From Oscillospiraceae bacterium (GTDB lineage: Bacteria > Bacillota > Clostridia > Oscillospirales > Oscillospiraceae), in contig JAFQZI010000091.1 of NCBI GenBank assembly GCA_017406005.1, positions 1 through 64,000 of the forward strand: a DNA stretch of 64,000 nucleotides. Reading direction: 5' to 3'. The notes under the pieces are model-generated. The model had not been told where the DNA came from, did no database searches, and saw nothing but the letters and a program-made list of their open reading frames with translations. Each line of letters begins with the position of its first letter. Positions within the stretch are counted from its first letter, which is position 1. Shown in pieces: positions 25,361 through 63,547 of this stretch. Made by a program: the position numbers and the translations under genes.

Positions 25361-25472
25361 GTTCAGTTGCCTCGTAATAAGTACTAACAAGATGCTCGCG
25401 AAGAGAACTTTGTACCCCGATTTCGGTGCACTGTCGCGAGCCAGGTATTTAGGGAAAGGCAGAACTGAACAT
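25361..25472 (+). repeat. Palindromic repeat, copy A
   Basis: Core 25394-25441 is 48 bp with perfect 8-bp arms GCTCGCGA/TCGCGAGC. Outer segments (GTTCAGTTGCC at 25361 and GGCAGAACTGAAC ending near 25470) form a second inverted repeat. On the reverse strand it holds the family block GTACAAAGTTCTCTTC. Confidence 0.8.
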
Positions 25473-25483
25473 TCAGCAGCAAA

Positions 25484-25525
25484 AAGAGAAAAGAGTTTGC
25501 TTTATTATGTTAACTCTTTTCTCTT
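25484..25525 (-). terminator. Terminator of the lipoprotein/small-protein unit
   Basis: 14-bp perfect inverted repeat AAGAGAAAAGAGTT/AACTCTTTTCTCTT. On the minus strand it runs into a short T tract, 80 bases beyond the stop at 25605. Confidence 0.7.
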
Positions 25526-25604
25526 ATTTCTAAATATTCGGTTTTTTAGATGATATTAGCACCATATACAGTAGAATAATCTGTATTAATTTACATAAAG
25601 CAGT

Positions 25605-25922
25605 TTAGTCGGCAGAAAGTGCTTTCCCCTTTTTGATATCTTTGAGGATACTCTTTAATGCCAAACACAAAGCCATGACAAAGAACCTTGAAGAAGGATC
25701 CGCATCCAGGTACTTCTCGAGGACACGCTCTTCTCCCTCCAGCAGGACGTTGACGGTGATCTTCTCTTCTCCGAAGCGGACTGTGCTGCAGCGGAACTTT
25801 TTGTATGCCAGGAACAGGAGGATCCTCAGATAGAACATGGGGGCTGCAATATAGTAAGTCAGATAGCAGAAATAACCCGCAAGAATGAGGAGGGGGATAA
25901 GCTGGAAATAATCTGTTTTCAT
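25605..25922 (-). CDS. Small membrane-anchored protein, hypothetical
   Basis: 105 residues. N-terminal hydrophobic stretch (FQLIPLLILAGYFCYLTYYIAAPMFY), then a soluble part with a charged C-terminus (KSILKDIKKGKALSAD). Its ATG overlaps the stop of the upstream lipoprotein gene by one base (TAATG), so the two are coupled and may interact at the membrane. Family not recognised. Confidence 0.7.
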   Translation of the reverse strand: MKTDYFQLIPLLILAGYFCYLTYYIAAPMFYLRILLFLAYKKFRCSTVRFGEEKITVNVLLEGEERVLEKYLDADPSSRFFVMALCLALKSILKDIKKGKALSAD

Positions 25923-26932
25923 TACGGGCGGTAGGTGTAGAGATCAGGGACGCCTCTGCCGCGGAGGACACCGTCGGTGCCCTGGTAGTAGACTGCGCCG
26001 GAGACAGAGAGCCAGGTACCGTCGCTCTGCTGGGTAACGGTTTCGGCAATGCCGTTAGCGTAATAGACCGTCATGGTATTGGATGAGGGATAAACATTGG
26101 GCGGATAATTATAGAGATCGGCCAGGCCTCTGCCACGGAGAACGCCGTCAGTGCCAAGGTAATAGGTATCGCCGGAGGATGTCCTCCATGTGCCGTCGGT
26201 ATACTCCCAGGCAATCACAGCGGTGCCGTTGCTGTAGTAATAGGTGGCGGAATTGCCCTTCGGCAATGCACCTTCGGAGTTGCCACCCGGGTTCGTCTGG
26301 CCGCCCTGCCCCTGCTTCACGGTGATAAGGGCCGAGGCGGAGTCAGAAGCGCCGTAATTGTTGAAGAAACGGCAGTATACCCGCCAGCCGTTGAGGGCGA
26401 GAGGGATAGACTCGAGTGTCATGTCTTTGGTATAGCCGTTGACAATGCGCAGGGTCGGGAATTCCTTCTGAGCTTCACTGTAAACAAGGTCACGGTAACC
26501 GTCGGGGCTGACAAAGTGCCATTCGGCTATATCGGCATTCTCATACCGCGTGACAAACTGGCACTTTCCGCCGACATAGACGGTTTCATCGGTCGGGTTC
26601 TTGGTGATGCGGGGCTGATTGTTGGGAACAGGTGTCGGCACCGGGGTGGAATAGATCGGAGCAGGGGTTGCCGCAGGAACTATGGGAACCGGTGTCGGGG
26701 TGGGGGTAGATGCGGGAATAATCGGAGCGGGGGTAGGCGCCGGGGTGGGCTCGGGAGTCGGAGCCGGGGTAGGCTCAGGCGTGGGAACCGGCGTAGGGTC
26801 CGGCGTGGCGATGACCGGAGCAGGATTCTCCGAGGGAGCAGTAGACTGAGAAAGCATGGAACTCAGGCCGCAGGCACTGAGAACAAGCATGCCCAGAACC
26901 AGGCAGGCAGCCAGACAGAGTATCTTTTTCAT
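25922..26932 (-). CDS. Lipoprotein with Pro-rich linker, Ig-like region and two C-terminal repeats
   Basis: 336 residues from the ATG at 26930-26932 (GAGGG 7 bases upstream). Lipoprotein signal with LSAC lipobox (Cys 21), a 70-residue Pro/Thr linker of PTPTPAP units that probably spans the wall, and an Ig-like region (ITKNPTDETVYVGGKCQFV... ending VYCRFFNNYGASDSASALITV). Two C-terminal copies of an approximately 60-residue unit follow, each holding TDGVLRGRG with ADLYNYPP or PDLYTYRP; each has aromatic YY-NG and DGTW motifs reminiscent of ligand-binding surface repeats. Function unknown. It lies 33 bases downstream of the GH94 gene, so carbohydrate or wall binding is plausible. Confidence 0.8.
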   Translation of the reverse strand: MKKILCLAACLVLGMLVLSACGLSSMLSQSTAPSENPAPVIATPDPTPVPTPEPTPAPTPEPTPAPTPAPIIPASTPTPTPVPIVPAATPAPIYSTPVPTPVPNNQPRITKNPTDETVYVGGKCQFVTRYENADIAEWHFVSPDGYRDLVYSEAQKEFPTLRIVNGYTKDMTLESIPLALNGWRVYCRFFNNYGASDSASALITVKQGQGGQTNPGGNSEGALPKGNSATYYYSNGTAVIAWEYTDGTWRTSSGDTYYLGTDGVLRGRGLADLYNYPPNVYPSSNTMTVYYANGIAETVTQQSDGTWLSVSGAVYYQGTDGVLRGRGVPDLYTYRP

Positions 26933-26965
26933 CGTATAACCCTCACATTCCAATGATCAGACTGA

Positions 26966-29401
26966 TCAGCCCATGATGACTTTGACTTCGGTCACGGTGC
27001 CGCATGCGGCGGGAGGAATGACCTGACCGGCAATGGCCCTGCCGTTAACAAGAACCTCTTTTACACCATATTCCACCCCGGCCGAATTGTCTACCGTGAT
27101 GTGATAGGTTGCCCCGCGGTAACGGCGGGAAACCGAATAACCCTTGCTGTGCGGCGGCAGGCATGGGTCAATCTTCAAGCCGTCCAGAGTAGGCACAACA
27201 CCGAGGATGGCCTGCGTGATGGAGAGAAGCGTCCAGGCAGCAGTGCCGGTGAGCCAGCTGTTCTTTGCCTCGCCATGCGTCGGAGCATCTTTGCCGGCGA
27301 TCATCTGCGGATAGACATACGGCTCAGTGCGATGGATTTCACTGATCTCTTCGAGATAGGAGGGGCAGGTGCGGCGATAGACCTCAAATGCACGCTTGCC
27401 GTGGCCGAGGACGGCCTCTGCGCAGACAATCCAGGGGTTGTTGTGGCAGAAGATACCGGCATTCTCTTTATATCCCGGCGGATAGCTGGAGATTTCACCA
27501 AGGTTGAGGTAGTAGTGCGTATAGGCAGGCTGCAGAAGGACAATGCCGTATTTTGTATCAAGCCGCTCCTCCACGCTCTTCATCGCTTTGGCGGCTTCTC
27601 CCGTCTCTTTGCCGATGCCGGCCATGACACACATACCTTGCGGCTCGATAAAGATCTGGCCTTCTTCGCATTCTTTACTGCCAACGGGAACACCGAAGGC
27701 ATCGTAGGCACGGCGGAACCACTCGCCGTCCCAGCCGGCGGAGAGAACTGCCTTTTCCATTGCGGCGACCTGCTTTTCACATTCTGCCGCTTCTTCGTCC
27801 AGATTGATATGACGACAGAGATCCGCATAGGCTTTGCCGTACTTCACAAACATACCTGCAATGAAAACGCTTTCGGCCACAGGCCCTTCACTCGGGCCCG
27901 TAATCTGGAAACTCTCACCCGGATGCGCAGAGAAGCAGTTGAGGTTGAGACAGTCATTCCAGTCAGCACGGCCGATCAGCGGCAGGGAGTGGGGGCCGAG
28001 ATGCTCGATCGTATAACGAAAGCTACGGCGCAGGTGCTCCATCAGAGGCTGCGCGACGGAGACGTCACAATCGAAGGCGACCATTTCATTGAGGATGGTG
28101 AAGTCGCCTGTTTCTCGGATATAGGCATCGGTGCCGGCAATGAGCCAGAGAGGATCGTCATTGAAGCCGCTGCCGACTGCCATGTTGCCCTTCTTGGTCA
28201 GAGGCTGATACTGGTGGTAGGCGGTGCCATCCTGGAACTGCGTTGCGGCAATATCCAGAATCCTCTCGCGAGCCCGCTCCGGAATCATATGGACAAAGCC
28301 GAACAGATCCTGGCAGGAATCACGGAAGCCCATGCCGCGACCCATTCCGCTTTCATAATAGCTGGCGGAGCGGCTCATATTAAAGGTGACCATGCACTGG
28401 TACTGGTTCCAGATATTCACCATGCGGCTGACATGCTCATCGTCGCAGGAGAGAGTAAAGCCGGAGAGAAGGTCACTCCAGAAATCGGCAAGCACCTGCT
28501 TCGCGGCAAAGAAGCTCTTATCCGTGCTGTAACGCTGCTGCATGGCAACGGCGTTCTTCTTGTTGATGACGCCTTTGCTCTCCCACTTGTCGTCTTCAGG
28601 GTTTTCGACATATCCCAGACCGAGAACCACGCTCTGCGTTTCACCCGGCTGAAGATCAAAGGTGAACTGCATGGCTCCGACAGGCGCCCAACCGTGGGCT
28701 ATACTGTTTCTGCAGCCGTTGCCGAAAACGGCTTCCGGCTTCGCGGGGCTGCCGTAGACGCCGATGAAGGAATCACGTGCGGTATCAAAGGCATCGGGGA
28801 CACGGTTGGCCCAAAGCTGCGCAAAATGATTGCGGCGCTCGCGGTATTCCGTTTTGTGATAAATCACGCCGGGAGCAACTTCCACCTCGCCGGTGGAGAA
28901 GTTGCGCTGGAAATTGGATGAATCATCCATCGCATCCCAGAGGCAGAACTCAGTATACGGGAAAACATCCACACGGCGTGCCTGATCGCCGGTATTGGTG
29001 ACCTCGACGCGGCAAAGCAGGCAGTTGTCACCACGGGGAACAAACATCTCCTGTTTGGCGGAAATGCTGTTCTTGCGGCTCTCAAAGACCGTGTAGCCAA
29101 GGCCGTGACGGCAGGTATAGGCATCCAGCTCCGCCTGCACCGGCTGCCAGGCAATATTCCAGACCTCTCCGTCCGACTTCAGGTAGACATGAAAACCGTC
29201 CTGATCCAGGGGGCTTGCGTTATAGCGGTATCGGGTCAGGCGGCGGAGGCGGGCATCCTTATAAAAGCTGTATCCGCCCGCGGTGTTGGAAACCAGGGTG
29301 AAAAAGTCTTCACTGCCGAGATAGTTGATCCAGGGCAGAGGGGTGCGCGGGGTTTCAATCACGTACTCCCGGCGTTCATCATCAAAGTGGCCGAATTTCA
29401 T
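26966..29401 (-). CDS. Cellobiose phosphorylase (GH94)
   Basis: Phosphorolyses cellobiose to glucose-1-phosphate and glucose in the cytosol, saving ATP. 811 residues, the length of the Clostridium thermocellum enzyme, whose N-terminus it resembles ([29 protein letters not shown]). Catalytic-domain landmarks are [20 protein letters not shown] (about 352-371), [11 protein letters not shown] and [11 protein letters not shown] (DWND at 480-483, which contains the general-acid Asp). ATG chosen with AGAGG upstream; an upstream in-frame start adds 26 unrelated residues. No signal peptide. Pairs with the GH3 gene just upstream. Confidence 0.95.
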
Positions 29402-29462
29402 TTCTATTCCTCTTTCTTTTTGGCTATATGGTTCTGTACTTCGTAAGTAGTGTATGCAAGCT

Positions 29463-29510
29463 GCCCGCGAAGGGAACATTGTACTGCTATTCCGGTGCTT
29501 TGTCGCGAGC
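29463..29510 (+). repeat. Palindromic repeat, copy B
   Basis: 48-bp core between arms GCCCGCGA and TCGCGAGC (one mismatch), in the 147-base gap upstream of the GH94 gene. The flank at 29438-29450 carries the ACTTCGTAAGT associated motif. The reverse strand holds GTACAATGTTCCCTTC. Confidence 0.82.
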
Positions 29511-29548
29511 TAAGTGTTGGCGGGATCTATATAAAGCATGATGAAAGG

Positions 29549-31903
29549 TTAGGATAGCTTTAGGAGCATCTCTAAAACGCGGCAGACGCTGGTTTCCAGC
29601 GCTTCGCGGCTGAGGCGGCCGTCGTGCAGGGCGGAGAGCGTCTCAGAAGGCATACCGCAGCCCATTTTGACATCGTTGCCGGCATTAATTTCGCGATACT
29701 GCTCTCCGTGGGTGTACCAGTCGGTCGTTACAAAACCTTCGAACCCCCACTCGGTGCGCAGAATATCCGTAAGAAGCTCACGGTTTTCGCTGGCACGCAC
29801 GCCGTTGATAATGTTGTAGGAACTCATAATAGTCCATGGCTGCGCTTCTTTGACGCAAATCTCAAAGGCTTTGAGATAGATCTCGCGCAGGGCGCGCTCG
29901 CTGAGGCGGGAGTCGGACTCGCGGCGGTTTGTCTCTTTGTTGTTGCAGGCAAAATGCTTCAGGGAAGCTGCAACTCCACGGCTCTGAATACCCTGCACAG
30001 CTGCCGAAGCCATTGTACCGGCAAGAAGGGGATCCTCTGAGAAATACTCGAAGTTCCGGCCGCAGAGCGGCGTCCGGTGAATGTTGATGGCAGGAGCCAG
30101 CCAGGTGCCGATGCCGTTTTCGTGTACTTCAGAGGCGGCTGCGGCCTCGACCTCACGGACGAGGTCCGGATCCCAGGTTGAAGAAAGAACGCTGGCCACC
30201 GGGAAAGCAGTTGTCTTCACGCCGGTCTCTTCCTTGAAGCGCAGTCCGGCAGGACCGTCGGCCGTCATGGTGTTGGGGATACCGTACTTCGGAATGTTGC
30301 CGAAGCCGAAGGTGTTGGCAGGGCCTCTGTTTGGCTGGCCGCCGAGGAGATGGATTTTCATCTCGTCCGTCAGGTTGGAAATGAACTCGTCGAGCGTCAT
30401 TTTACCCTCGAGGACATCGAACAGGCGGATCCCCTCCGGTTCCAGCCAGACGCAATAGTCCACCGGCCAGGTAAACTCCGAGGGAGCCTGACCGTCGAAC
30501 GGGAGAAGGGAAAGATTATCATCCGGCCTCGGGAAGTCCTCCGTGGCTGCCACGTGCAAATAAGTGCCGTCTGCTAACATGCGCTGATGAAGCTGCTTCG
30601 GTGCGCACTTTTCGGAAAGCTGCCGGAGGACAGTATTCTCTTCCACCGTGTAGGTATAGGGAAGTTTTTCCGTGTCGCGCACATTGAATCCGGCGTGGAA
30701 ATAATAGGTGCCTGCTTCCAGAATCCAGGCTGATTTTCTGACCAGGCCGAGGTCGTCATAACTTGCAAACCGCTCCGGGGAGACCGATATCACAAGCGTC
30801 TCTTCCTCTCCCGGCTGCAGAAGTGTTGTTTTTGCAAAGCCGACAAGTACTTTTTTCGGCTTACCGAGCTTCCCCTGAGGGGCTTCACAGTAAAGCTGCA
30901 AAACCTGACGGCCTGCGACTTTGCCGGTATTGGCCACAACAGCAGAAAAGCGGAGTGCATCCCCCTCCGGAACCATACAGATTTCGGAAAGGGCGAAGGT
31001 TGTATAGGTAAGGCCGAAGCCGAAAGGATAGCTGACTTTCTCCACAGCATGGGGGATGGTTTCGAAATACCGGTAGCCGACGTAAATATCCTCCGTGTAC
31101 TCCACATAGTCTTCCGAATCGGCAAAATGCTCGGAGCTGGGATAAGCATCGAAGTTTACAGCAAAGGTATCCGGCAGATGGCCGGACGGGGCAACATCTC
31201 CGCAGAGGATGTCCGCTGTGGCTAGCCCACCTTCCATCCCTCCCTGCCAGGCGAGAAGCGCGGATTTGATCTTCGGTTCGTTTTTAAACCAGCCGGTGTC
31301 CACCATGCCGCCGACGTTCAGAACGGTAATTACCTTCTCAAACCTGTCGAGGACGGCACTCACCATCGCCTCTTCTTCGAGGCTGAGATAGAAGTCACCG
31401 TCATGGGGGGTACCGGTGCGGTCCCATCCTTCGGAGGAAAACCGACAGATGACCACCATGGCCGTGTCCGTGAAGGTGCGTGCTTCATCCAGGAGAGCTG
31501 CAGGTACTTCGGGCTCAACCGTAAAGCCGGGAGCCTTCCCTTCTGCGCGCTGCCGGGCCACATTCTCTTCGTACCAGAAAGAGAGAGGGGCAAAGAGCTG
31601 CACCTTACCCTCGGCTTCTTTGATCTGCAACCCCTGGAGGATACTCCTGACGTAGGCGCAGGTAACATCACCGCTGCCTCCTCCGCCTTTTACATAGTCC
31701 GCCTGGGCTTTGCCGAATACCGCCAGCTTCTGACCGCCGCTGAGAGGCAAAAGGCCTTCTTCATTTTTCAGAAGCACCATGCCTTCTGCTGCGGCTCTGC
31801 GGGAAAGCATAATATGCGCGGGACAGCCTGTGATGCGCTGACCGTTTTCACCGAGGCCGTGACCGGGCATAAACTGGATGCGCTGCCATTTCGGTTCCTG
31901 CAT
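29549..31903 (-). CDS. GH3 beta-glucosidase with inverted domain order
   Basis: 784 residues, cytosolic. Unlike ordinary GH3 enzymes, the alpha/beta sandwich domain comes first (AAAEGMVLLKNEEGLLPL..., with GGGGSGDV). A fibronectin-III-like segment follows (LQLYCEAPQGKLGKPKKVLVGFAKT), and the TIM-barrel domain comes last: TADGPAGLR, GRNFEYFSEDPLLAG, KHFACNNKETNR and VTTDWY with the nucleophile Asp. This swapped order is known from Butyrivibrio and Ruminococcus beta-glucosidases. ATG at 31901-31903 with AAGGAG. Upstream of GH94, so it probably hydrolyses cello-oligosaccharides or other beta-glucosides. Confidence 0.93.
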   Translation of the reverse strand: MQEPKWQRIQFMPGHGLGENGQRITGCPAHIMLSRRAAAEGMVLLKNEEGLLPLSGGQKLAVFGKAQADYVKGGGGSGDVTCAYVRSILQGLQIKEAEGKVQLFAPLSFWYEENVARQRAEGKAPGFTVEPEVPAALLDEARTFTDTAMVVICRFSSEGWDRTGTPHDGDFYLSLEEEAMVSAVLDRFEKVITVLNVGGMVDTGWFKNEPKIKSALLAWQGGMEGGLATADILCGDVAPSGHLPDTFAVNFDAYPSSEHFADSEDYVEYTEDIYVGYRYFETIPHAVEKVSYPFGFGLTYTTFALSEICMVPEGDALRFSAVVANTGKVAGRQVLQLYCEAPQGKLGKPKKVLVGFAKTTLLQPGEEETLVISVSPERFASYDDLGLVRKSAWILEAGTYYFHAGFNVRDTEKLPYTYTVEENTVLRQLSEKCAPKQLHQRMLADGTYLHVAATEDFPRPDDNLSLLPFDGQAPSEFTWPVDYCVWLEPEGIRLFDVLEGKMTLDEFISNLTDEMKIHLLGGQPNRGPANTFGFGNIPKYGIPNTMTADGPAGLRFKEETGVKTTAFPVASVLSSTWDPDLVREVEAAAASEVHENGIGTWLAPAINIHRTPLCGRNFEYFSEDPLLAGTMASAAVQGIQSRGVAASLKHFACNNKETNRRESDSRLSERALREIYLKAFEICVKEAQPWTIMSSYNIINGVRASENRELLTDILRTEWGFEGFVTTDWYTHGEQYREINAGNDVKMGCGMPSETLSALHDGRLSREALETSVCRVLEMLLKLS

Positions 31904-32002
31904 TGTTTTTTCTCCTTGGTCTTTTTGGATTTTTACTTTGTAATTTGTGCAATGCATAACGTGCAAAATATATTATTCCTCGATTTTTGTGCACTGCATA
32001 CT

Positions 32003-32050
32003 GCTCGCGAAGGCAATATTATACTTCGATTTTTGTGCTCCGTCGCGAGC
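32003..32050 (+). repeat. Palindromic repeat, copy C
   Basis: 48-bp core with perfect arms GCTCGCGA/TCGCGAGC, about 100 bases upstream of the GH3 start codon. The reverse strand reads GTATAATATTGCCTTC at the family block. The remainder of 31904-32170 is AT-rich with no gene seen. Confidence 0.82.
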
Positions 32051-32172
32051 TAAGTCAGGGGGAAATCCTGTATGATAGATTAGAAGTGCGATGCATATTA
32101 TGTAGAAGCAAAGTTAGAACAGGTATATACTCCTTAGAAAGTTAATTTTAACAGAAAACAGGCCATGAGTCA

Positions 32173-32210
32173 ATCAGACGCCGGCTGTTTTGAACAAACC
32201 GGCGTCTGAT
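32173..32210 (-). terminator. Hairpin after the sugar isomerase operon
   Basis: Perfect 12-bp stem ATCAGACGCCGG/CCGGCGTCTGAT, 29 bases after the isomerase stop. No T-run follows on the minus strand, so it may be a 3' stabiliser rather than an intrinsic terminator. Confidence 0.55.
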
Positions 32211-32238
32211 CTTTAGGAAAGGAAAAACCTCAGCACTT

Positions 32239-33717: not shown

Positions 33718-33744
33718 AGTTTTTCTCCTCTCGTTTAATTATTT

Positions 33745-34383
33745 TTATTTCAGGTCAGGGGCAATATCAATGTTTTCGCCTTCAATGGCAACAACCGCAC
33801 CGGCTTTGGCTTCGTTGCTGTCACGATGGGCAAGCAGCCACTTGTTGCAGGCCCAGAGAAGTTTATCTTCGTCATTGAGTGGGGTCATCTCCGGCTTCGG
33901 GCCGTTCGTGCCCTTCGGCAGGACCACGAGGACCTTAAAGCCCTCCCCTTTTGCTGCGCTGCATGGGGCATAATGGAGCGTGGTGCCGAAAACCTCTACC
34001 GGGACACCTGCCGGACAGAAGAACGCTTTGACTTTAGCGGAATCGAGCTTTCCGTCTTCCATATCATCGATCTTGGCCAGGAGAAGGATAAAGTCCTTCG
34101 TGCCGAGATTGACTTCGCTGTCACGATGATATTCCAGGCAGTTCATTTTGGTGTTGTGCCCGTTGCACCAGCCGATCTGAATCGGCATTCCACCGTATTC
34201 ATTGACGGCAAGTAATTTTGCGATGGGGAGCGCCTCCAGCACCGGATTGCCCGGCACATATTCCGTCCCCTCCGGAAGGGGAGAAATGCGATCCAGCGTC
34301 TCCAACAGCTCGGAAAGATCATAGCCCGTAATCACATGGCCATAACGCGCAAATTCCTTATCATAAACTGAGAGTATTTTCAT
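33745..34383 (-). CDS. DUF4867-like protein, possible cupin-fold sugar enzyme
   Basis: 212 residues. The segment GHNTKMNCLEYHRDSEVNLG followed 50 residues later by VEVFGTTLHYAPC places His/Glu residues as in metal-binding cupins such as lyxose isomerase; that reading is inference. It lies between the isomerase and the xylulokinase-like kinase and shares their operon, so a step in the same pathway (mutarotation, epimerisation or isomerisation) is likely. No signal peptide. AAAGGAAA ribosome binding site. Confidence 0.72.
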   Translation of the reverse strand: MKILSVYDKEFARYGHVITGYDLSELLETLDRISPLPEGTEYVPGNPVLEALPIAKLLAVNEYGGMPIQIGWCNGHNTKMNCLEYHRDSEVNLGTKDFILLLAKIDDMEDGKLDSAKVKAFFCPAGVPVEVFGTTLHYAPCSAAKGEGFKVLVVLPKGTNGPKPEMTPLNDEDKLLWACNKWLLAHRDSNEAKAGAVVAIEGENIDIAPDLK

Positions 34384-34405
34384 CTGATTTCCTTTCTTCT
34401 CCGAT

Positions 34406-35884: not shown

Positions 35885-35922
35885 AATAATTCTCCCAAGA
35901 ACTTTCTAAACAGTATGCAGCC

Positions 35923-37092: not shown

Positions 37093-37113
37093 AGTTTTAT
37101 CCTCCTCGCTGCC

Positions 37114-39962: not shown

Positions 39963-39985
39963 GGTTCTTCTCTTCCCTTCTGGAA

Positions 39986-40018
39986 ACGATGCAGGCGAGC
40001 CTAGCCCACCTGCATCGT
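39986..40018 (-). terminator. Intercistronic hairpin after the sugar-binding protein gene
   Basis: 10-bp perfect inverted repeat ACGATGCAGG/CCTGCATCGT in the 94-base gap before the ATPase gene. Probable differential-expression hairpin. Confidence 0.6.
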
Positions 40019-40056
40019 AATTTGATTTAGCAGTTTATTCTAATTTTTTAATAAGA

Positions 40057-43028: not shown

Positions 43029-43036
43029 GGTTACTT

Positions 43037-47725: not shown

Positions 47726-47741
47726 TTATATAGAGGGAAAA

Positions 47742-50496: not shown

Positions 50497-50522
50497 CCCT
50501 GTACGAAAAAGAATTCAAATAA

Positions 50523-51035: not shown

Positions 51036-51152
51036 CCTCTTGCCTTTCCGTGATCCTTCGCCGTTTTTCTCTGTCGGGAATTTTAGCATAAACGGCGCCG
51101 GATTTCTACAGAAAGATGCGCAGAAGGGATATGCAACCGGTATAAACTGTGT

Positions 51153-51158
51153 TATAAT
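51153..51158 (+). promoter_or_regulatory. Possible -10 box for the M16-lgt operon
   Basis: A perfect TATAAT within GTTATAATACT, 44 bases before the TTG start of the first M16 gene. No convincing -35 is seen at 16-18 bases. Confidence 0.35.
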
Positions 51159-51201
51159 ACTTTAATTCAGAAACGTTTCTCAGAAGATTGGAGGGAAGAC
51201 A

Positions 51202-56312: not shown

Positions 56313-57232
56313 TTTCTGTTATACTCCCTGCTTTTAACGAAGAACAGATGATTGCCAAAGCGTCGGAAACTCTGGCCGGAATTCTGCAGTCAGCGAATAT
56401 CCCGTATGAGCTTCTCTTTGTGGACGACGGCTCCACTGACGGGACCTGGGCTGCCATCCGGAAAGCTTCCGAAGACGATCCCCGGATCCGCGGGCTGCAT
56501 TTCAGCAGGAATTTCGGAAAGGAATCCGCCATGTTTGCCGGTCTGGAGAAGGCAAAAGGCGACTGCTGCGTTGTCATGGACTGCGACCTTCAGCATCCTC
56601 CCGAAAAGATCGTGGAAATGGTGCGCCTCTGGGAAGAGGGCTATGAAGTTGTGGAAGGGGTCAAAGAAGACCGCGGCACGGAAACCGCTGCCCATCGCTT
56701 TGCCTCAAATTCCTTCTATGCTCTGATCAGCAAAGCTATCGGGATGGACATGTCCTCCTCGTCCGACTTCAAGCTGCTGGACCGCAAGGTCGTCGACACG
56801 CTGAACAGGATGCCGGAACGCAACGTCTTCTTCCGGGCACTCTCCTACTGGGTCGGTTTCCGGAAGGCCGAAGTGAAGTATTCCGTGCAGGAGCGCACCG
56901 CCGGCGAAAGCAAATGGTCCACGCGATCGCTGATCCGGTACGCCATCAAGAATATCACCTCCTTCTCCTCTGCTCCGCTTCACTGTATCACGCTGATGGG
57001 GGCATTCATGCTGATCATCTCGATCATCTTCACCGTCATTTCCCTGGTGCAGAAAATCAACGGGACCGCAGCGGAAGGCTTTACGACCGTCATCATTCTC
57101 CTGCTGGTTACCGGCAGCCTGATCATGCTGAGCCTCGGGGTGATCGGCTATTACATCTCCAAGATGTATGAGGAGCTGAAGGGGCGGCCCAGATATATCA
57201 TTTCGGAAGAATGCGGGGAAAACCATGATTGA
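56309..57232 (+). CDS. GtrB-like polyprenyl-phosphate glycosyltransferase (GT2)
   Basis: 307 residues. GT2 domain starts ISVILPAFNEE, nucleotide-binding LLFVDDGSTDGTW, metal site VMDCDLQHPP, and the RFASNSFYALISKAIG segment of the DPM1/GtrB group. Two C-terminal membrane helices (LMGAFMLIISIIFTVISLV; VIILLLVTGSLIMLSLGVIGYYI) identify GtrB-type enzymes, which attach a sugar to undecaprenyl phosphate. Overlaps both neighbours. Confidence 0.92.
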   Translation: MISVILPAFNEEQMIAKASETLAGILQSANIPYELLFVDDGSTDGTWAAIRKASEDDPRIRGLHFSRNFGKESAMFAGLEKAKGDCCVVMDCDLQHPPEKIVEMVRLWEEGYEVVEGVKEDRGTETAAHRFASNSFYALISKAIGMDMSSSSDFKLLDRKVVDTLNRMPERNVFFRALSYWVGFRKAEVKYSVQERTAGESKWSTRSLIRYAIKNITSFSSAPLHCITLMGAFMLIISIIFTVISLVQKINGTAAEGFTTVIILLLVTGSLIMLSLGVIGYYISKMYEELKGRPRYIISEECGENHD

Positions 57233-57659
57233 AACAATAAAAAAACTCCTTGTAAAATACAGGGAGTTAATCGTGTATGTCATTGTCGGCGGGATCACCA
57301 CCGTCATCAACTGGGGAGTAAGCTTTTTGCTGGATGCTTTTGTCTTTGACTCGTCCGTCCCGCTGCAAAACACCATCATCAATGTGATCGCATGGTTTGT
57401 GGCAGTCGTAGCATCGTTCCCCATGAACAGAAAATGGGTATTTCAAAGCAAAAATCCAAACTGGGTCGGTGAATTTTTCGGATTTACAGCCTCAAGACTC
57501 ACTACTTTGGGAATAGAAGAACTGGTCATGCTGCTCTGCGTCAACGTATTCGGAATTCCTTTCCGTATTTCGAAAGTATTTATCGCCTCCGTGATCGTCA
57601 TTATTCTGAATTACGTTTTCAGCAAAATCCTCGTTTTCCGAAAAGGCCAGTCTCAATAA
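57225..57659 (+). CDS. GtrA-family flippase-like protein
   Basis: 144 residues, four helices. FIVYVIVGGITTVINWG-type opening (here IVYVIVGGITTVINWG), FPMNRKWVFQSKN between helices 2 and 3, and a closing NYVFSKILVFRK are GtrA signatures. Thought to flip the sugar-lipid made by GtrB. Its end overlaps the convergent glycosidase gene by seven bases. Confidence 0.93.
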   Translation: MIETIKKLLVKYRELIVYVIVGGITTVINWGVSFLLDAFVFDSSVPLQNTIINVIAWFVAVVASFPMNRKWVFQSKNPNWVGEFFGFTASRLTTLGIEELVMLLCVNVFGIPFRISKVFIASVIVIILNYVFSKILVFRKGQSQ

Positions 57660-58957
57660 AAATTCATGGATTCCGCATACAGCTTTCCGTTCTGTCTCAC
57701 GATGGAGAGCTGTATGTTTTTTTCTTCCACAGCGGTTCTCCTGGCAACACTTTCGGTCTGATACGTGTACCCGGTGAGATAATGCCCGTCGGAAAGCTCC
57801 GTGCAGAAATCCTCCTCTACGGAGAGAACCGAAACCGAACGGACAAAAGCATAGCCAAAACTCCCGAACGCTCCGTACAGGCGGTGCACCAGTTCACCGT
57901 TCGGAACCGCGAGATCGCGCAGGCGGTAATAATGGATGTTGCTCATTGCGCCGGCGTCCGCGGAGAAGTTAACATAATGCTCTATGTACTGGCTTGCAAA
58001 CTCCTTCAGTTCCGCCTTTACCTCTGCGGTGCAGTTGTCTTCAAACGAAGCTGTATCGGGGGCGAGTGCTTCCATCTCCTGACGGGTCATCCCCGTCCGT
58101 TCCTCATCCGAAATCTCGGGAACCGTATAACTGGGATTCTGCTCGAGCACAACGAAGCTTGTCGGGATCGGACGGACGTCAAACGTGCCCGCCGGGTTGT
58201 TGATATATCCCCCGTCCAGCCACATCATGGAGGAATTCCCGCCGTCCAGATTCGTGGCATTGACAGCGCCGAAGCGCAGCATGATCTCCGTTTCATCGGC
58301 AAAGGAAGCGCCGAGGCTGTTCGGCTGCCGCCCGTCAAAGACGAGAAGTAGGATCGCTCCGTCACTGCGCTGGCCGATTGCCGTGCGGGGGTTGAGCGTG
58401 TCGATCCAGTAGGAAAAAGCACTGGTGGAGGGATCCACAGGCTCTCCGTCCATCACTAAAAGAGGCCCGTATCCGGTACCTTCCTTGATATGATTCTGTG
58501 TCAGTTCCTCCACATGCTGAAAGCCGAGACGGAGCTTCCCGTCGTAGTCGATCCCGGCAAATCCTTCGCCGACACCCGTCCAGCCGTTATAGATGACACC
58601 ATCACTGACGATCGCATGCTCCGGGACGCTTCCGTTTCCGGTTCCGCCCTCATCGGCAAACCCGCCGCCGTTGATCCCGGCAACTGCGTGGAACTGCTGC
58701 ACATACTCCGCCACCGTGTATCCCTTGGAAAACAGCCTGTCCGGCCGGCAGCCGAGCACCACTCTCGTCGGGTCCAGCACGATGAGCATATAGGCTGTGC
58801 AGGTCTCCCAGGGAACGGTCACAAGAATCAGCCCGTCACCGTCATCGTCCGTATATCCCCATGCATCGGTATACGGCTCTGCCGATGCCGTTGCGGAGAC
58901 AGCGCTGCAAAGGAAAGTCGCAATGCACAGCAACGCGGCAAGGAACTTCCTCATCAT
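57653..58957 (-). CDS. Secreted phosphodiester glycosidase (NAGPA domain)
   Basis: 434 residues. Signal peptide (MMRKFLAALLCIATFLCSAVSATASA), then the PF09992-type domain: AGINGGGFADEGG, DGVIYNGWTG, GYGPLLVMDGEPV, NPRTAIGQRSDGAILLLVFDGRQ and the catalytic-site block NATNLDGGNSSMMWLDGGYINNPAG. Such enzymes remove terminal sugars linked by phosphodiester bonds, for example on wall teichoic acids or exopolysaccharide. A C-terminal extension of about 150 residues (NTF2-like, SIVRQNGKLY) may bind ligand. It faces the GtrA/GtrB set, so it may trim the glycan that set makes. Confidence 0.88.
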   Translation of the reverse strand: MMRKFLAALLCIATFLCSAVSATASAEPYTDAWGYTDDDGDGLILVTVPWETCTAYMLIVLDPTRVVLGCRPDRLFSKGYTVAEYVQQFHAVAGINGGGFADEGGTGNGSVPEHAIVSDGVIYNGWTGVGEGFAGIDYDGKLRLGFQHVEELTQNHIKEGTGYGPLLVMDGEPVDPSTSAFSYWIDTLNPRTAIGQRSDGAILLLVFDGRQPNSLGASFADETEIMLRFGAVNATNLDGGNSSMMWLDGGYINNPAGTFDVRPIPTSFVVLEQNPSYTVPEISDEERTGMTRQEMEALAPDTASFEDNCTAEVKAELKEFASQYIEHYVNFSADAGAMSNIHYYRLRDLAVPNGELVHRLYGAFGSFGYAFVRSVSVLSVEEDFCTELSDGHYLTGYTYQTESVARRTAVEEKNIQLSIVRQNGKLYAESMNFY

Positions 58958-59787
58958 GGCCTCTCTCCTGCCTGCTCATGCCGTTCCTCCGGTCTGCCCT
59001 CCGGAACACGGCGCGGAACAAGCGCTACATCACTGCCGATCAGGATTTTGGTAAGCCAGATAAAAAACAGCATAACGAGGATCGGAATCAGGCAGGACGT
59101 AACCAGCATGACCGCGAGCGCATTGACAAAATTATTCAGCACTCTTTTGATACTATCCCCGGTGCCGGATACTGTCTCTTTCACTCCGGAAATGAACCCA
59201 CGGATCCCGCCGCTTTCTTCCGTTTCCGCTTCCTCTTCCCCGTCCGCCGGAATCTGGTCTGTCGTCTGGATGGCGGCGTTAATGGTTGACTGAATGGATG
59301 CGCTATATGTTTCGTCGATCATGTCCGAAACACGGACACTCGCGGGAATCACCAGCGCAACGGCAAGCCCGAAAACCGTCAGCTTCCAGGCAACACGCCG
59401 GATCATTTCTTTCCTGGCGAAAACGTTCACCGCAAGGAGAATGCATGCAGCGGGAATCAGGATCATAAAAGCCGCATAACCGGTAATGGTGGTCAGATAT
59501 TTTTCCAGATAGATTGCACTGATCACAATGAGGAAATAGGAACTCAGTTCCGCAAGCTTGTCGGCAATCGGTGTGGCCGTGTCACCCGGCAGCAGGGTAA
59601 TCGCTGCTGAAGCCGCTGCGGAAGCTGCTGTCAGCTCGAGCACGGTGCCTGTTTTCTCATCGAGCGAAGCAATCGTGGAAGCATGAAACTGAGGGGAAGC
59701 AGCGTAGCCGGCAATCACAAAGACAGACGCAGCTGCCACCAGAAGCGGAATCACTGTTCTGAGAACTTTGGAAAGCGTCTTATTCAT
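58954..59787 (-). CDS. Polytopic membrane protein, hypothetical
   Basis: 277 residues with about five helices. An N-terminal helix (IPLLVAAASVFVIAGYAAS) is followed by a loop with LLPGDTATPIADKLAELSSYFL, a helix pair, an extracytoplasmic region ending in an acidic GEEEAETEE stretch, and a last helix (LIPILVMLFFIWLTKILIG). The stop overlaps the start of the glycosidase gene, so they are coupled. The family occurs in Clostridia without a known role. Confidence 0.72.
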   Translation of the reverse strand: MNKTLSKVLRTVIPLLVAAASVFVIAGYAASPQFHASTIASLDEKTGTVLELTAASAAASAAITLLPGDTATPIADKLAELSSYFLIVISAIYLEKYLTTITGYAAFMILIPAACILLAVNVFARKEMIRRVAWKLTVFGLAVALVIPASVRVSDMIDETYSASIQSTINAAIQTTDQIPADGEEEAETEESGGIRGFISGVKETVSGTGDSIKRVLNNFVNALAVMLVTSCLIPILVMLFFIWLTKILIGSDVALVPRRVPEGRPEERHEQAGERP

Positions 59788-59823
59788 ATCCTTGTTTTCC
59801 TTTCTCTTTCATCAATTGCAGAA

Positions 59824-59854
59824 AAGAACCGATCTCTCTGTCTGACCGGTTCTT
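59824..59854. terminator. Terminator between surface-protein and membrane-protein genes
   Basis: Stem AAGAACCG/CGGTTCTT with a T6 tract on the plus strand and TTTT on the minus strand. It lies 47 bases past the surface-protein stop. Confidence 0.75.
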
Positions 59855-59900
59855 TTTTACTATCTTTTCAACAAAGAAGATGGAGTTACCTCAAAGGCCT

Positions 59901-61334
59901 TTATTTTTTCTTCTTTACGAACACCAGTACACCGAGGCACACTGCCGAGCACATCCCGAGCGCCAGCCAGAGACCGATGTTGGAGTCATCCCCCGTTTTA
60001 GGCCTTGTATAGACCGATTCAAAGCGGACGGCAAGCGTCTGGTTGCGGTTCTGCATCATGTCATAGTTCACGGTAAAGCCGTATCCCGGATACTCCCTGT
60101 AACGCCCTGCCAGCAGAACGCTGTATACATAGTTGCCGCTCGCCGGATAAAAACCGAAGGTCAGGGATTCGCCCGGCCGGATCGTAAAGTTTTCTCCGTT
60201 ATAGACATAGCGCCCGTTGACCTGGATGGCCCCGCTGCCCGAGTAACCCACGGTAAGAACCAGCGGCCCTTTGATCGGCTCCCAGTAGGGATAAACCGTG
60301 ATATTCTCATACAGCATCGGCATCGGTGCATTCAAAGCTGCATTGAATTCTTTCCCGTAAGGATCCCAGGACCATCCGGCATGGATGTAGCCCGGCCGTG
60401 TGAACGTCGTCCCTCTCAGCCAGCCGATGCCCGGGTAGGCGGTATCCTGCACCGCCGGCTCCGCCCCGTATACCCCGGGATGATAGGTGATTTTAAACTC
60501 CTTATAAGGATACGGTCCGGGATCCGGCGCGGGTCCTGGTCCGGGACCGGGATCGGGATCTACAGGAGCAGGCCCCGGACTGCCGGCCGGAACAAACTTC
60601 GCTACCAGTACTCTATCCCGGTCAATATCAAAGATCTCATCAGCCGTCGTGCTGATCTTAGATCCGCCTTCATACCACCCGTCAAACTGATACCCCGTCA
60701 CCGGCTGCGCTTTAATAGGAAATACTGTACCATCATAGGTTACAGTTTGTGTCAAGGAGCTCGCCGAATTAACATACCCGCTCCCTGCAGGATCTACAGA
60801 AGCTGAGATAATATGATCCTGACCTTTGAAATGAGCAACTGCCATAACATTTTGTTTAATCGTCAAATTCTGTGAGGCTGGGTTTGCGGGAACATTTCCT
60901 GTCCAACCTACAAAGTCATAGCCCGGGTTTGGAACAGCTGATATTGTAGTTGTATCATTATAATGAAAGGAGCCTCCTCCGGAGACAGAACCGGCTCCAG
61001 CAGGATCCGCACTTACCTGCACAGTGTAATCAGAGGCTATAAACATAGCAGTTACATAGCGATCTTTATCTGTTGTAAAGGCTATGGAACCAGACGGGCC
61101 GGGATAGAAACTATCTTCTGTCTGCCATCCCAGGAATTCGTACCCCAGGTTAGCGGTAGCATCATATGGCTGATCATTTGAGTCTGAATAATGCTTAGCA
61201 GGATCTGAGGGGGTTATATTCCCTGCAGCTGCACTGGGCGAAATCGAAACATAAACCGTCCCATCTGCAAAAGCAGAAACGCAAAGACTCGTAAACAGCA
61301 AAACCACGATGATTATTGACAATATCTTCTTCAT
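59901..61334 (-). CDS. Wall-anchored surface protein with InlB-type repeats and LPxTG-like motif
   Basis: 477 residues from the ATG at 61332-61334 (GAGGAGG 8 bases upstream). Sec signal (MKKILSIIIVVLLFTSLCVSAFA). Two to three repeats of about 70 residues of the bacterial GW-F/InlB B-repeat kind follow, for example VSADPAGAGSVSGGG...GYDFVGWTGNV and VDPAGSGYVNSASS...GYQFDGWYEGG. Next come a Pro-rich linker (GSPGPAPVDPDPGPGPG), a C-terminal domain (TRPGYIHAGWSWDPYGKEF) and a sortase-type tail RPKTG-hydrophobic-KKKK. The sorting signal has Arg in place of Leu (RPKTG). Probably an adhesin or surface-exposed binding protein. Confidence 0.87.
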   Translation of the reverse strand: MKKILSIIIVVLLFTSLCVSAFADGTVYVSISPSAAAGNITPSDPAKHYSDSNDQPYDATANLGYEFLGWQTEDSFYPGPSGSIAFTTDKDRYVTAMFIASDYTVQVSADPAGAGSVSGGGSFHYNDTTTISAVPNPGYDFVGWTGNVPANPASQNLTIKQNVMAVAHFKGQDHIISASVDPAGSGYVNSASSLTQTVTYDGTVFPIKAQPVTGYQFDGWYEGGSKISTTADEIFDIDRDRVLVAKFVPAGSPGPAPVDPDPGPGPGPAPDPGPYPYKEFKITYHPGVYGAEPAVQDTAYPGIGWLRGTTFTRPGYIHAGWSWDPYGKEFNAALNAPMPMLYENITVYPYWEPIKGPLVLTVGYSGSGAIQVNGRYVYNGENFTIRPGESLTFGFYPASGNYVYSVLLAGRYREYPGYGFTVNYDMMQNRNQTLAVRFESVYTRPKTGDDSNIGLWLALGMCSAVCLGVLVFVKKKK

Positions 61335-61377
61335 ATAGAGTGCCTCCTCTATAAGTAGGTCAACATAATACAGAGAC

Positions 61378-61406
61378 AGTATACATGATGTTTCTCTATT
61401 TTGCAA
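61378..61406 (-). promoter_or_regulatory. Promoter of the surface-protein gene
   Basis: Minus strand TTGCAA (61401-61406), 17-base spacer, TATACT (61378-61383), 44 bases before the start codon. Confidence 0.75.
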
Positions 61407-61444
61407 CAATTATTTTCGATTTTCTTACAAATTTATCACATCGG

Positions 61445-62357
61445 CTATTTGTCTGCCGCATACTGCCAGTGATACCCGCCGCTGGTAAGCTGCTTCCCGC
61501 CGCAGACCTTATGGATACCGACAAAACCGGTTGCCCTCTCTGCTGTCTGCTGGGAAGGATAATACTCGCCTGTCTCTACACAGATCACCGGTTTGGCATG
61601 GCTGTCAGACTCCACAAAGGCCCGGTTCCCCGGCCTGGACAGATATTCTTTCATCTGCCGGCTGATTTCCTCTCTCCTTTCCGGATGCTTTGCATAGATA
61701 CGCTTCTGGATTATGCTCTGCCTGCCGGCCAGTTCCGGATCCTCACTCGCCGCCCTGCGGGCAGAGGAGCACCTCCCCCGGAAATTCGGGTCCTGCCAGA
61801 GCTCTTTTGAGATTTCACTGAGCCTCACCTTAATGGTGGGGTCTTTTTCATAGGCAGCCCGCACACCGGCCGAAACACGCCCCCTGTAAGTCGGATCCGT
61901 TTCAAACAGATTGTTCACCGTTTCCCGGATTTTATCCTTCAGCTCCGGATGCTCGTCATACAGCCTGTTTTTCGCCTCGCTGGAGAGCTTTTTTGTAATA
62001 TCGCTCATGCGGGCGCCTTTGCCCAGGCCGCCCAGAAAGCGGTTGTACCCTTTAGCCGGATCAGAGCTGTCATAAAAGGCGATAAACCACTTTTCCAGTT
62101 TTTCAGCACCCTCTTTGATCAGATTCACAGAGGATTTCTTTCTTGAAATTCTCCCATCCGAATTCCTTAATTGCCCTGCGGATCGGCGTATCTCTGTAAT
62201 ATCCTCTGCCCCCGTTCCAGCGTTCTTCCACGGATTTCCCTGTACACCCGATATAAATCTTCCCCTCCGGATCCGTGAGCTTATATACCGTATAATGCGC
62301 CTCCGCCGGCGGCGAAGGTAATTCGTATTTATTCTGCTCTTTATTATCCTTACTCAT
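61445..62357 (-). pseudogene. GIY-YIG homing-type endonuclease, split by a frameshift
   Basis: The 5' part (62103-62357, 84 codons) is a GIY-YIG nuclease start: YTVYKLTDPEGKIYIGCTGKSVEERWNGGRGYY...AIKEFGWENFKKEIL, then it runs into a stop. The rest of the domain (NLIKEGAEKLEKWFIAFYDSSDPAKGYNRFLGG) continues in another frame that is open from about 62140 to 61445. It goes on with four NUMOD3-like repeats (KDPTIKVRLSEISKELWQDP and similar) and a C-terminal NUMOD1-like helix-turn-helix (PVICVETGEYYPSQQTAERATG...GGYHWQYA). The break lies at about 62115-62130 and fits loss of two bases or gain of one. It could be decay or a base-calling error. No intron or intein host is visible, so it was free-standing. 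Confidence 0.8.
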
Positions 62358-62392
62358 AATAACCTCTCCATGATGTTATTCAAAATAAATAG

Positions 62393-62440
62393 TGCGCGGA
62401 CGGAAACGTACCTACAAAGTACAATGTCTCCTTCCGCGCA
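62393..62440 (-). repeat. Palindromic repeat, copy F
   Basis: 48-bp core with perfect arms TGCGCGGA/TCCGCGCA and the family block GTACAATGTCTCCTTC on the plus strand, i.e. opposite orientation to copies A-C. The associated ACTTACCACGAAG motif follows at 62452-62464. Confidence 0.8.
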
Positions 62441-62489
62441 ATATGCACCGCACTTACCACGAAGATGTTCGCGGTTCCTAACCTCACCC

Positions 62490-62612
62490 ACCGTCGCTTT
62501 GCGACGGTCCCCCCTGTCTCCCTGCGGGTCGGTCACGCCACGGCTCTGGAATGCCACCGGCATTCCATTCACTCCCGTGGCGACACTTCGTTACCCGCCA
62601 GGGGAGGGTTAT
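62490..62612. repeat. Cluster of nested palindromes
   Basis: Within 120 bases lie ACCGTCGC-TTT-GCGACGGT (62490-62508) and GCCACGG/CCGTGGC (62537-62581), the latter enclosing the hairpin TGGAATGCC-ACC-GGCATTCCA (62547-62567). No open frame of note. It resembles REP/BIME-like intergenic palindromic units seen in gut Firmicutes; function unknown. Confidence 0.65.
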
Positions 62613-62689
62613 ATAAGGTAATGATTATAAAAAGGAACCGTTTTGCTCTCCAAGGCTTCCGCTGGCGCGGGTTATTACCAAAAAATATT

Positions 62690-62735
62690 GCTCGGAGCAG
62701 CGCACTCAATAGATGCACCATGTTTCCTTCCGAGC
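62690..62735 (-). repeat. Palindromic repeat, copy D
   Basis: 46-bp core with arms GCTCGGA/TCCGAGC; nearly the same sequence as copy E (about 5 differences). Block GCACCATGTTTCCTTC. Confidence 0.8.
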
Positions 62736-62820
62736 ATCCTAACGCGCGGGTAGCGTACGACGATCCTTGCCTCGCAATATGCTTCGCGCTTATCACTAGT
62801 TTTTCTCTCAGTTTTTCATC

Positions 62821-62849
62821 TTGACAAACAGATATATTATATTTATAAT
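62821..62849 (+). promoter_or_regulatory. Consensus promoter of the toxin-antitoxin locus
   Basis: TTGACA (62821-62826), 17-base spacer, TATAAT (62844-62849): a perfect vegetative promoter, 43 bases before the antitoxin ATG. This suggests strong expression held down by autoregulation. Confidence 0.88.
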
Positions 62850-62891
62850 AGGTGCGAAAGTAAGAATTTCTAACTAATATGGAGGTGCCTT

Positions 62892-63149
62892 ATGCTTGCT
62901 GAACTTCGGACAAAATCACAGATTACATTGCCAAAATCCATCGTTTCAAATCTTGGACTTACTGAAGGAGATCAGCTTGAGGTCTACGAAAAAGACGGAA
63001 CGATCTACATGACTCCTGTTGCCGTATATCCAAAAAGCACTATTTCTGAACTGCAAAAAGAGATATCAAAAATGAAGACTGATATCAAAAATGGTAAACA
63101 GCCTGTTTTTGATAACCTGGACAGTTTGTTTGATGCTTTGGAGAAATAG
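62892..63149 (+). CDS. AbrB/MazE-type antitoxin
   Basis: 85 residues. The N-terminal swapped-hairpin DNA-binding domain reads LAELRTKSQITLPKSIVSNLGLTEGDQLEVYEKDGTIYMTPV (SpoVT-AbrB fold). The C-terminus (SELQKEISKMKTDIKNGKQPVFDNLDSLFDALEK) is the toxin-wrapping tail. GGAGG six bases before the ATG. It is intact and followed one base later by the toxin frame, as in AbrB-RelE/ParE type II systems; binding to its own promoter is inferred. Confidence 0.9.
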   Translation: MLAELRTKSQITLPKSIVSNLGLTEGDQLEVYEKDGTIYMTPVAVYPKSTISELQKEISKMKTDIKNGKQPVFDNLDSLFDALEK

Positions 63150-63150
63150 C

Positions 63151-63413
63151 ATGTTCAAGATTACATTTACTGACCGTTTTCAAAAACACTATAAAAACCT
63201 GTCTGATACAGAAAAAAGCAGTTCAAATCAAAGCTTGCCGTGTTTACCGAAAATCCACTCCATCCTTCTCTCCGTACAAAAAGGATTCAGGGAACTGATG
63301 ATCTCTTTGAGTTCAGTGTAAACATGGATATCCGTGTTATCTGGTACTATGAGGATGATTCTCTTGTTGCTCTCATCGACATAGGACATCACGATATTCT
63401 CAGAAAGTACTGA
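63151..63413 (+). pseudogene. RelE/ParE-like toxin gene with a one-base frameshift in an A tract
   Basis: The ATG frame encodes MFKITFTDRFQKHYKNLSDTE and then goes out of frame at GAAAAAAG (63211-63218). One extra A, or a -1 ribosomal slip, restores KKQFKSKLAVFTENPLHPSLRTKRIQG-type sequence running on through LFEFSVNMDIRVIWYYEDD and LVALIDIGHHDILRKY to a TGA at 63411. That gives 87 residues, the size of RelE/ParE toxins, with the family RV-I-W-Y and D-I-G-H-H-D blocks. As read, the plain frame stops at 63321. This is a real loss of function, a slippery-site regulated gene, or a sequencing error. Confidence 0.85.
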
Positions 63414-63476
63414 CTATCTGATTTAACAAATACACCACAGCTCCCATCGTCGCGGATTATCCCTAAAAATATTATT

Positions 63477-63547
63477 GCTCGGAGCACCGCACTCATTAGA
63501 GGCACAATGTTTCCTTCCGAGCAATTTCGACGCACTTAGTACGAAGT
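63477..63547 (-). repeat. Palindromic repeat, copy E with flanking ACTTAGTACGAAGT
   Basis: Core 63477-63522 (46 bp, arms GCTCGGA/TCCGAGC, block GCACAATGTTTCCTTC), then the palindromic flank ACTTAGTACGAAGT at 63534-63547. That flank supplies the last codons and stop of the minus-strand gene ending at 63536. Confidence 0.82.

Follow-up and report, generated by a model that had tools for sequence, protein, structure and literature searches.

Palindromic elements of the window

The DNA analyzed here (the window) is a stretch of 64,000 nucleotides from an Oscillospiraceae bacterium (contig JAFQZI010000091.1, assembly GCA_017406005.1), and it carries a dispersed family of palindromic elements whose origin is the subject of this work. 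Six copies of a hairpin core are present, at 25394-25441, 29463-29510, 32003-32050, 62393-62440, 62690-62735 and 63477-63522, exactly where and as long as the initial annotation had placed them. The 46–48 bp reported there is indeed the length of the core, but the full unit is longer, about 78 bp without terminal inverted repeats (TIRs) and about 121 or 161 bp with them. Read in core orientation, a right motif, GCACTNATTACGARG, follows the core, and some copies hold an internal 39-bp module, GACGCGCGAGAAACGTGCGACGTTCCTTGCCTCGC. The elements of the window are listed below.

24882..24972, minus strand: core-less derivative with right TIR 24882-24895, right motif, 39-bp module 24919-24953 and a left-end remnant, CTGTCTTTC (read by eye; left boundary approximate)
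25355..25476, minus strand: complete TIR-bearing copy of 122 bp with left TIR 25463-25476 (CTGAATGTTCAGTT, 4 mismatches), core 25394-25441, right motif and right TIR 25355-25368 (3 mismatches)
29437..29513, minus strand: TIR-less copy with core 29463-29510 and right motif, upstream of and partly overlapping the longest frame of a GH94 gene (26966-29479, minus strand)
31976..32053, minus strand: TIR-less copy with core 32003-32050, upstream of a GH3 gene (29549-31966, minus strand)
62391..62466, plus strand: divergent copy with arms TGCGCGGA/TCCGCGCA, core 62393-62440 and right motif GCACTTACCACGAAG
62687..62775, plus strand: divergent copy with arms GCTCGGA/TCCGAGC and core 62690-62735, then the 39-bp module (62741-62775, 6 mismatches)
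63474..63548, plus strand: divergent copy with arms GCTCGGA/TCCGAGC, core 63477-63522 and right motif GCACTTAGTACGAAG

The 22 bases at 24888 had been described as a left-end fragment; in core orientation, they are the right end of the core-less copy, which keeps the 39-bp module with 6 mismatches. At the complete copy, 25355..25476, the flanking 8-mers agree at 4 of 8 positions only, so that no clear target duplication is seen there. Only at 29463 does the sequence block GTACAATGTT-N-CCTTC, reported as shared by the copies, match exactly; each of the other five copies has one or two mismatches. In the copy at 31976..32053, a GCACNNAAWTCGARG-like motif is repeated downstream (read by eye).

Copy number in the host genome

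The host genome, G000, is a metagenome-assembled genome (MAG) of 3.52 Mb in 174 contigs, with a completeness of 92.9% and a contamination of 6.6%. A 16-base consensus, GTACAATGTTNCCTTC, matches it 73 times with at most 2 mismatches, compared with 4 matches for the reversed control, and a 22-base consensus, GTACAATGTTNNCTTCGCGAGC, matches 86 times with at most 3 mismatches, compared with 0 for the control. A covariance-model search, as the initial annotation had proposed, finds further copies across the genome: model R1, built on 63 cores, gives 141 matches at E≤0.5, including 131 at E≤0.01 (150 of 1105 first-look candidates scored). All six window cores are recovered by R1 (E 6.1e-13 to 2.5e-5) and by a second model, R2 (E 2.7e-25 to 6.2e-9), the training sets of both having included these copies among others. 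The set of 96 copies used below consists of ungapped finds in the examined stretches of the host genome; it does not contain the three divergent copies at 62-63.6 kb. The exact pattern had 0 matches in a contig database from which close records may be missing, and a plasmid search with the 62.4-63.6 kb stretch as the query gave no match.

Transposon ends, target duplications and empty sites

Reading of the copy flanks revealed TIRs of about 14 bp, RTAACTRTTCAGTY, that bound a full copy of about 121 bp, or about 161 bp when the internal 39-bp module is present. In a free search with at most 4 mismatches, 35 of the 96 copies have a left TIR, which precedes the core by 34-36 bp in 26 cases, and 43 have a right TIR, which ends 38-40 bp behind the core in 28 cases and 77-80 bp behind it in 12. 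The reversed TIRs were found at 3 (left) and 5 (right) of the 96 copies at the same cut-off. Under a strict rule, 21 copies have both ends, 6 the left end, 19 the right end and 50 neither. A looser rule yields 31 copies with a TIR pair; 30 of these are 120-123 or 160-161 bp long and one is 146 bp, although these lengths do not form an independent test because the search was confined to offsets seen earlier. The left TIR (at most 4 mismatches) is present in 81% of the 31 TIR-pair copies and the right TIR in 90%, compared with 2% each for shuffled TIRs. For the remaining 65 copies, the values are 15% versus 2% on the left and 22% versus 3% on the right.

The identity of the n-mers that flank the 31 TIR pairs peaks at n=8, with 0.484 against 0.296 in the control, and is 0.30-0.37 for the other lengths from 3 to 12. 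A target duplication of at least 6 of 8 positions is present at 7 of the 31 copies and is perfect at three of them (AAAAACAG, ATTATCAG and ATCTACCG), whereas control pairings reach 6 or more with a probability of 0.0235 and 8 of 8 in 0 of 2000 cases. For the 24 copies without a duplication (fewer than 6 of 8), this result is expected only if those copies are old.

Two loci were examined for empty-site alleles, one of the checks suggested at the outset, and both lack the element in the sister genome G024. In the spacer between rsgA and yebC (names such as these rest on Pfam matches), the element sits between ATCTACCG repeats, and the alignment with G024 shows the gap directly. The element in front of a LamB/YcsF gene is flanked by AAAAACAG repeats and is missing from G024 as well; the exact junction was read by eye, as the MAFFT alignment was poor. 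At both loci, a second sister genome, G020, lacks the element and has other short inserts.

The end of the element inserted behind the rsgA-like gene (ATAA, L029:1440-1443) supplies the TAA stop codon of that gene. A short insert of about 76 bp (CTGATAAAAC...GTTATTCGTAT) was seen in G020 (L254, near 2907-3036) and in the host genome (L014, about 1600-1680), at different places of the same spacer, which suggests another family of miniature inverted-repeat transposable elements (MITEs).

An IS66-type insertion sequence with matching ends

The host genome has two IS66 transposase genes. One of them, at locus L100, is a single-frame DDE_Tnp_IS66 gene of 477 amino acids situated between GTAACTGTTCAGTC (exact) and GTAACTATTCAGTC, and the TIR-like ends of this insertion sequence (IS) match those of the small elements. 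An associated transposase had been anticipated, either a REP-associated tyrosine transposase (RAYT; REP, repetitive extragenic palindromic) or one of another type, and the IS66-type IS with the same ends is of the latter kind. At the locus of the second IS66 gene, no such end was found, and the IS66 copy at L100 has no hairpin core.

A close transposase (E≤1e-30) occurs in 1 of 60 genomes, the host genome only. The nearest named relatives of the transposase are from Ruminococcus, Oscillospiraceae and Clostridia MAGs, several of them from goat gut, and from these a gut Clostridia setting can be inferred. Among the 79 relative loci returned, 11 have at least 70% identity; the TIR (at most 3 mismatches) is present at both ends of 4 of these, at one end of 6 and at neither end of 1, which is a fragment.

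Its single frame, its ends and the 8-bp duplication would place the IS at L100 in an ISBst12-like group of the IS66 family, as that group is described in the available portion of PMC12898284. There, ISDge4 of the ISBst12 group is reported with TIRs GTGACTACTCAGCA/GTAACTGCTCAGCA, one gene of 449 amino acids and an 8-bp direct repeat. The likeness lies in the form of the TIRs (GTAACTNNTCAGNN), the single-open reading frame IS66 transposase and the 8-bp direct repeat. Unlike ISDge4, which in that description encodes its transposase, the window elements of about 121-161 bp are too short for one, and unlike the IS66 copy of the host genome, the small elements contain the hairpin core.

Because of their ends, the duplication and the absence from a relative, the TIR-bearing copies are regarded as MITEs of an ISBst12-like IS66 element. 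The statement is limited to these copies, as 50 of the 96 have neither TIR under the strict rule; the TIR-less ones are related to them by the core and the right motif. For the repeats as a whole, the explanation that we consider probable is that they form one MITE family belonging to the ISBst12-like group of IS66 elements, in which the hairpin core persists longer than the ends. The proposal of a non-autonomous mobile element is upheld by the TIRs and 8-bp duplications, the absence at two orthologous sites, the many copies and the co-varying arms described below. The transposase encoded at L100 would move the small element in trans.

Other short, non-coding elements with TIRs have been described, among them MITEPsy1 (PMC3189936) and QMITE2 (PMC10969869). 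In the accessible parts of these reports, the ends of MITEPsy1 match an IS, the element being tied to ISPsy2 and flanked by 4-nucleotide duplications, and the direct repeats of QMITE2 measure 7-9 bp, its transcript being predicted to form a stem-loop. The present family differs from MITEPsy1, as described in that portion of PMC3189936, in having an IS66-type end with an 8-bp duplication, and from both elements, as described in those excerpts, in that the core is kept when the ends are lost. In the open-licence literature, including the accessible parts of PMC3189936, PMC9769881 and PMC3281130, no publication was found in which a MITE family of bacteria is connected with an IS66 element of the ISBst12 type.

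The hairpin core, the right motif and the 39-bp module

The central hairpin consists of 8-bp arms and a 32-nucleotide loop. Across 63 cores, 98.2% of the cells in the arms are standard pairs, a share that is biased upward because the copies were collected with a consensus or with models that include the arms. Changes on both sides, found in 7 of the 8 arm pairs and in 12 cells in total, are better evidence than the paired-cell share; 0 of 500 shuffles were as good, although kinship among the sequences alone may beat such shuffles. When the set is widened to 81 copies, including 30 that come from two other species, 94.5% of cells are paired and 27 cells have two-sided changes (0 of 500 shuffles). 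The co-variation of arms across many copies, which had been put forward as support for a selected structure, is thus observed. In the window itself, the compensation between arms holds for the most part, with one exception: the core at 29463-29510 has a one-sided change, TCGCGGGC, which in hairpin terms gives a T-G pair.

The arms fall into the types GCTCGCGA/TCGCGAGC, TCGCGCGA/TCGCGCGA, TGCGCGGA/TCCGCGCA and GCTCGGA/TCCGAGC. The loop sequence is conserved among the cores, and among the 65 copies that lack a TIR pair, the arms are more constant than the loop, with pairwise identities of 0.89 and 0.68, respectively. An inner hairpin within the loop was considered and rejected, as mutual information (60 cores) and RNAalifold (63 and 81 sequences) gave the outer arms alone; some single copies fold further individually.

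The ACTTA-NN-ACGAAGT flank noted in the initial annotation belongs to the element itself as a common component, GCACTNATTACGARG. With at most 4 mismatches, this motif is found behind the core in 29 of the 31 TIR-pair copies, 58 of the 65 others and 32 of 41 copies in relatives, compared with 7, 17 and 5 copies, respectively, for the reversed control at the same cut-off. In the copies without a TIR pair and in those of the relatives, similarity falls directly after GCACTNATTACGARG. Set A3 is made up of 78 of the 95 prepared rows (no TIR-pair rows) and the three divergent window copies.

The element seems to have acquired the 39-bp module, which would itself be a different palindromic repeat. 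The module occurs at L270:1507-1541 of G021 and is dispersed in sister genomes, with further BLAST matches in G006 (7), G015 (3), G022 (3) and G021 (1); the BLAST matches do not bear out its presence in G012. G006, G021 and G022 carry the module but have no match to the core models. Tandem cores 86-103 bp apart were seen at L073, L084 and L054 of the host genome and at L116 of G020, and the L084 pair was also found at the corresponding place of G020.

Copies without ends in sister species

The relatives were searched with R1 under strict filters (36 genomes of the genus and 23 of the order) and with R2 (24 and 15 genomes). There are 33 R1 and 48 R2 matches in G024, and 14 R1 and 19 R2 matches in G020, which is 72% complete. 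Elsewhere, R1 gave one weak match in each of two genomes, and R2 gave one or two weak matches in six. G015 has 15 R2 matches; the single one that was read (L226) has different arms and another loop, and G015 is therefore not counted as a carrier.

G000 apparently shares copies with G020 or G024 at eight loci. Of ten shared-site alignments made, one pair (L141/L202) did not align and was dropped, leaving nine alignments at the eight loci. The identity is 0.62-0.88 in the core, 0.33-0.72 in the 60 nucleotides to its left, 0.19-0.70 in the 26 nucleotides to its right and 0.05-0.80 in the next 64 nucleotides, which are partly coding and in one case extend beyond the contig end. By these ranges, it is only in comparison with the left spacer that the core is better conserved.

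An alternative is that the core with GCACTNATTACGARG (about 78 bp) is a palindromic element in its own right, older than the ends and spreading in a way of its own, and that IS66-type ends enclosed one of its copies only later, with amplification in G000. G020 (19 R2 matches) and G024 (48) keep the core, and 32 of 41 of the relatives' copies keep the motif, with TIRs near the control level. The similarity of the TIR-less copies is low until about 3 bp before the left arm and drops right after ACGARGY, and arm variants such as GCTCGG and GCGCGG are common to G000 and G024. Against this, the G020 copy L107 (shared site L182/L107) keeps CTGTTCAG at the TIR position and the G020 copy L208 keeps CAGTTCTGTCTTTC; the piece of left TIR retained in L107 indicates that part of the TIR-bearing copies are older than the divergence of G000 from G020. 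The cores that lack a TIR pair lie further from the consensus, with a mean of 7.6 compared with 5.7 of 48 positions for TIR-pair cores, as expected of older copies, and no separate transposase was found for such an element. We consider this order of events rather unlikely.

Several observations weigh against the IS66-type MITE explanation, or restrict it. Neither end is present in 50 of 96 copies under the strict rule, and a duplication of at least 7 of 8 positions is present at only 4 of the 31 TIR pairs. The IS66 copy itself shows no target duplication in its flanks. The contig that carries it is 3.5 kb long and the contamination of the MAG is 6.6%, so that it is not certain that the copy belongs to the genome; no transposition was observed. 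With at most 4 mismatches, TIRs are rare in G020 (left 7% and right 7% of 14 copies; control 1%) and in G024 (left 7% and right 4% of 27; control 1-2%), close to the control; the family may therefore not have originated in the TIR form, which could be a late branch. At the shared sites, BLAST matches span the core at three of the eight loci and are one-sided at the other five, and the region of the right motif is not better conserved than the sequence beyond it. Gene conversion could also explain the conservation of the core. Its persistence may reflect constraint, or the core may be older than the ends.

Placement among genes

Neighboring genes were called with a codon model trained on the window genes. 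One of the 96 copies was left out because its flank was too short, and 83 of the other 95 have both neighbors called. Of these 83, 38 lie between convergent genes, 38 between tandem genes (18 sense and 20 antisense) and 7 between divergent genes. As convergent and divergent pairs are equal in number on a circular genome, 38:7 is a strong bias (p = 3e-6), whereas there is no sense bias toward the tandem genes (p = 0.87). Most copies are thus situated in convergent intergenic spaces or behind a gene, with no preferred strand.

These counts bear on the idea of a cis-acting RNA leader or regulator binding site upstream of genes, such as the sugar genes of the window. Three copies at 25-32 kb do lie on the coding strand near the GH94 and GH3 genes, and the loop sequence is conserved, but the genome-wide excess of convergent over divergent placement and the even split between sense and antisense tandem copies contradict such a function, and no Rfam family reaches its gathering score within the window. 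A leader or regulator site is thus very unlikely and was rejected as a general role, in agreement with the earlier statement that the element does not look like a fixed leader; single copies could still have been recruited. Integron attC sites and NtrC-like sites were also considered as candidates and set aside.

Hairpins near the 3' ends of genes could also be bidirectional intrinsic terminators spread by chance duplication. Of the 96 copies, none has a T-run of at least 4 within 12 nucleotides of the hairpin on the sense strand and 4 have one on the opposite strand, and the TIRs and duplications point to transposition. On the near absence of T-runs, intrinsic terminators were rejected, and this origin has scarcely any probability.

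In the IS66-type MITE explanation, the TIRs would be free to decay after insertion, and the hairpin would be kept as a DNA or RNA structure at 3' ends, or at least be tolerated only there. A more specific scenario, which we put forward tentatively and hold to be less than even in probability, is that a hairpin element from gut Clostridia is carried along by IS66-type ends and later domesticated: the ends decay, and the hairpin with its co-changing arms stays in place across species as a functional DNA or RNA structure at 3' ends.

Comparison with REP elements

The same placement recalls REPs, which according to the accessible part of PMC3733652 lie mainly between unidirectional and convergent genes, a similar distribution. 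The family also resembles the GTAG/CGTC REPs of that portion of PMC3733652 in being palindromic, high-copy and intergenic, and in having paired copies and variant stems. It differs from them, on the same partial description, in having no GTAG/CGTC tag, a hairpin of 46-49 bp with a 32-nucleotide loop compared with the 20-40 bp of REPs, TIRs with 8-bp duplications, and no RAYT found beside a core.

An origin as a REP/REPIN element moved by a RAYT (a Y1 tyrosine transposase) was examined by a search for Y1_Tnp in the host genome and 59 relatives and by inspection of the loci and tags. Such an origin would account for more than 100 palindromic, intergenic copies, some of them in tandem pairs, with a placement like that of REPs in the accessible part of PMC3733652, and G024 has two Y1 genes with frames of 253 and 270 amino acids. 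However, a GTAG, GTGG or CGTC tag is present beside the stem in 0 of the 96 host copies, and among 41 copies of the relatives GTAG occurs 0 times and GTGG and CGTC once each. The sole Y1 gene found in G000 is IS200-like and has no core in its 3.4-kb locus, and there is no core within the 2.7 and 3.3 kb around the two Y1 genes of G024. G020, at its 72% completeness, carries cores and has no Y1 match, and Y1 genes occur in 31 of the 60 genomes, mostly in genomes without the family.

A Y1 enzyme is not consistent with TIRs and an 8-bp duplication. The RAYT/IS200 origin was rejected and is extremely improbable, and the description as REP-like is not supported in its RAYT sense, with no tag in the host copies and no core beside any of the three Y1 genes. 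The family behaves as a MITE, and its distribution resembles that of REPs; judged by those defining features of REPs that were open to testing, it does not belong to them.

If the IS66-type MITE explanation is correct, REP-like palindromes would have a second route of spreading, by a DDE transposase instead of a RAYT. The copies would also provide a graded set, running from intact elements to conserved hairpins without ends, in which the role of hairpins at gene ends can be tested.

Elsewhere in the window, at 59901-61409 on the minus strand, a gene encodes a protein of 502 amino acids with InlB B-repeat-like domains (Flg_new_2, Listeria-Bacteroides repeat), which is probably a cell-surface protein.

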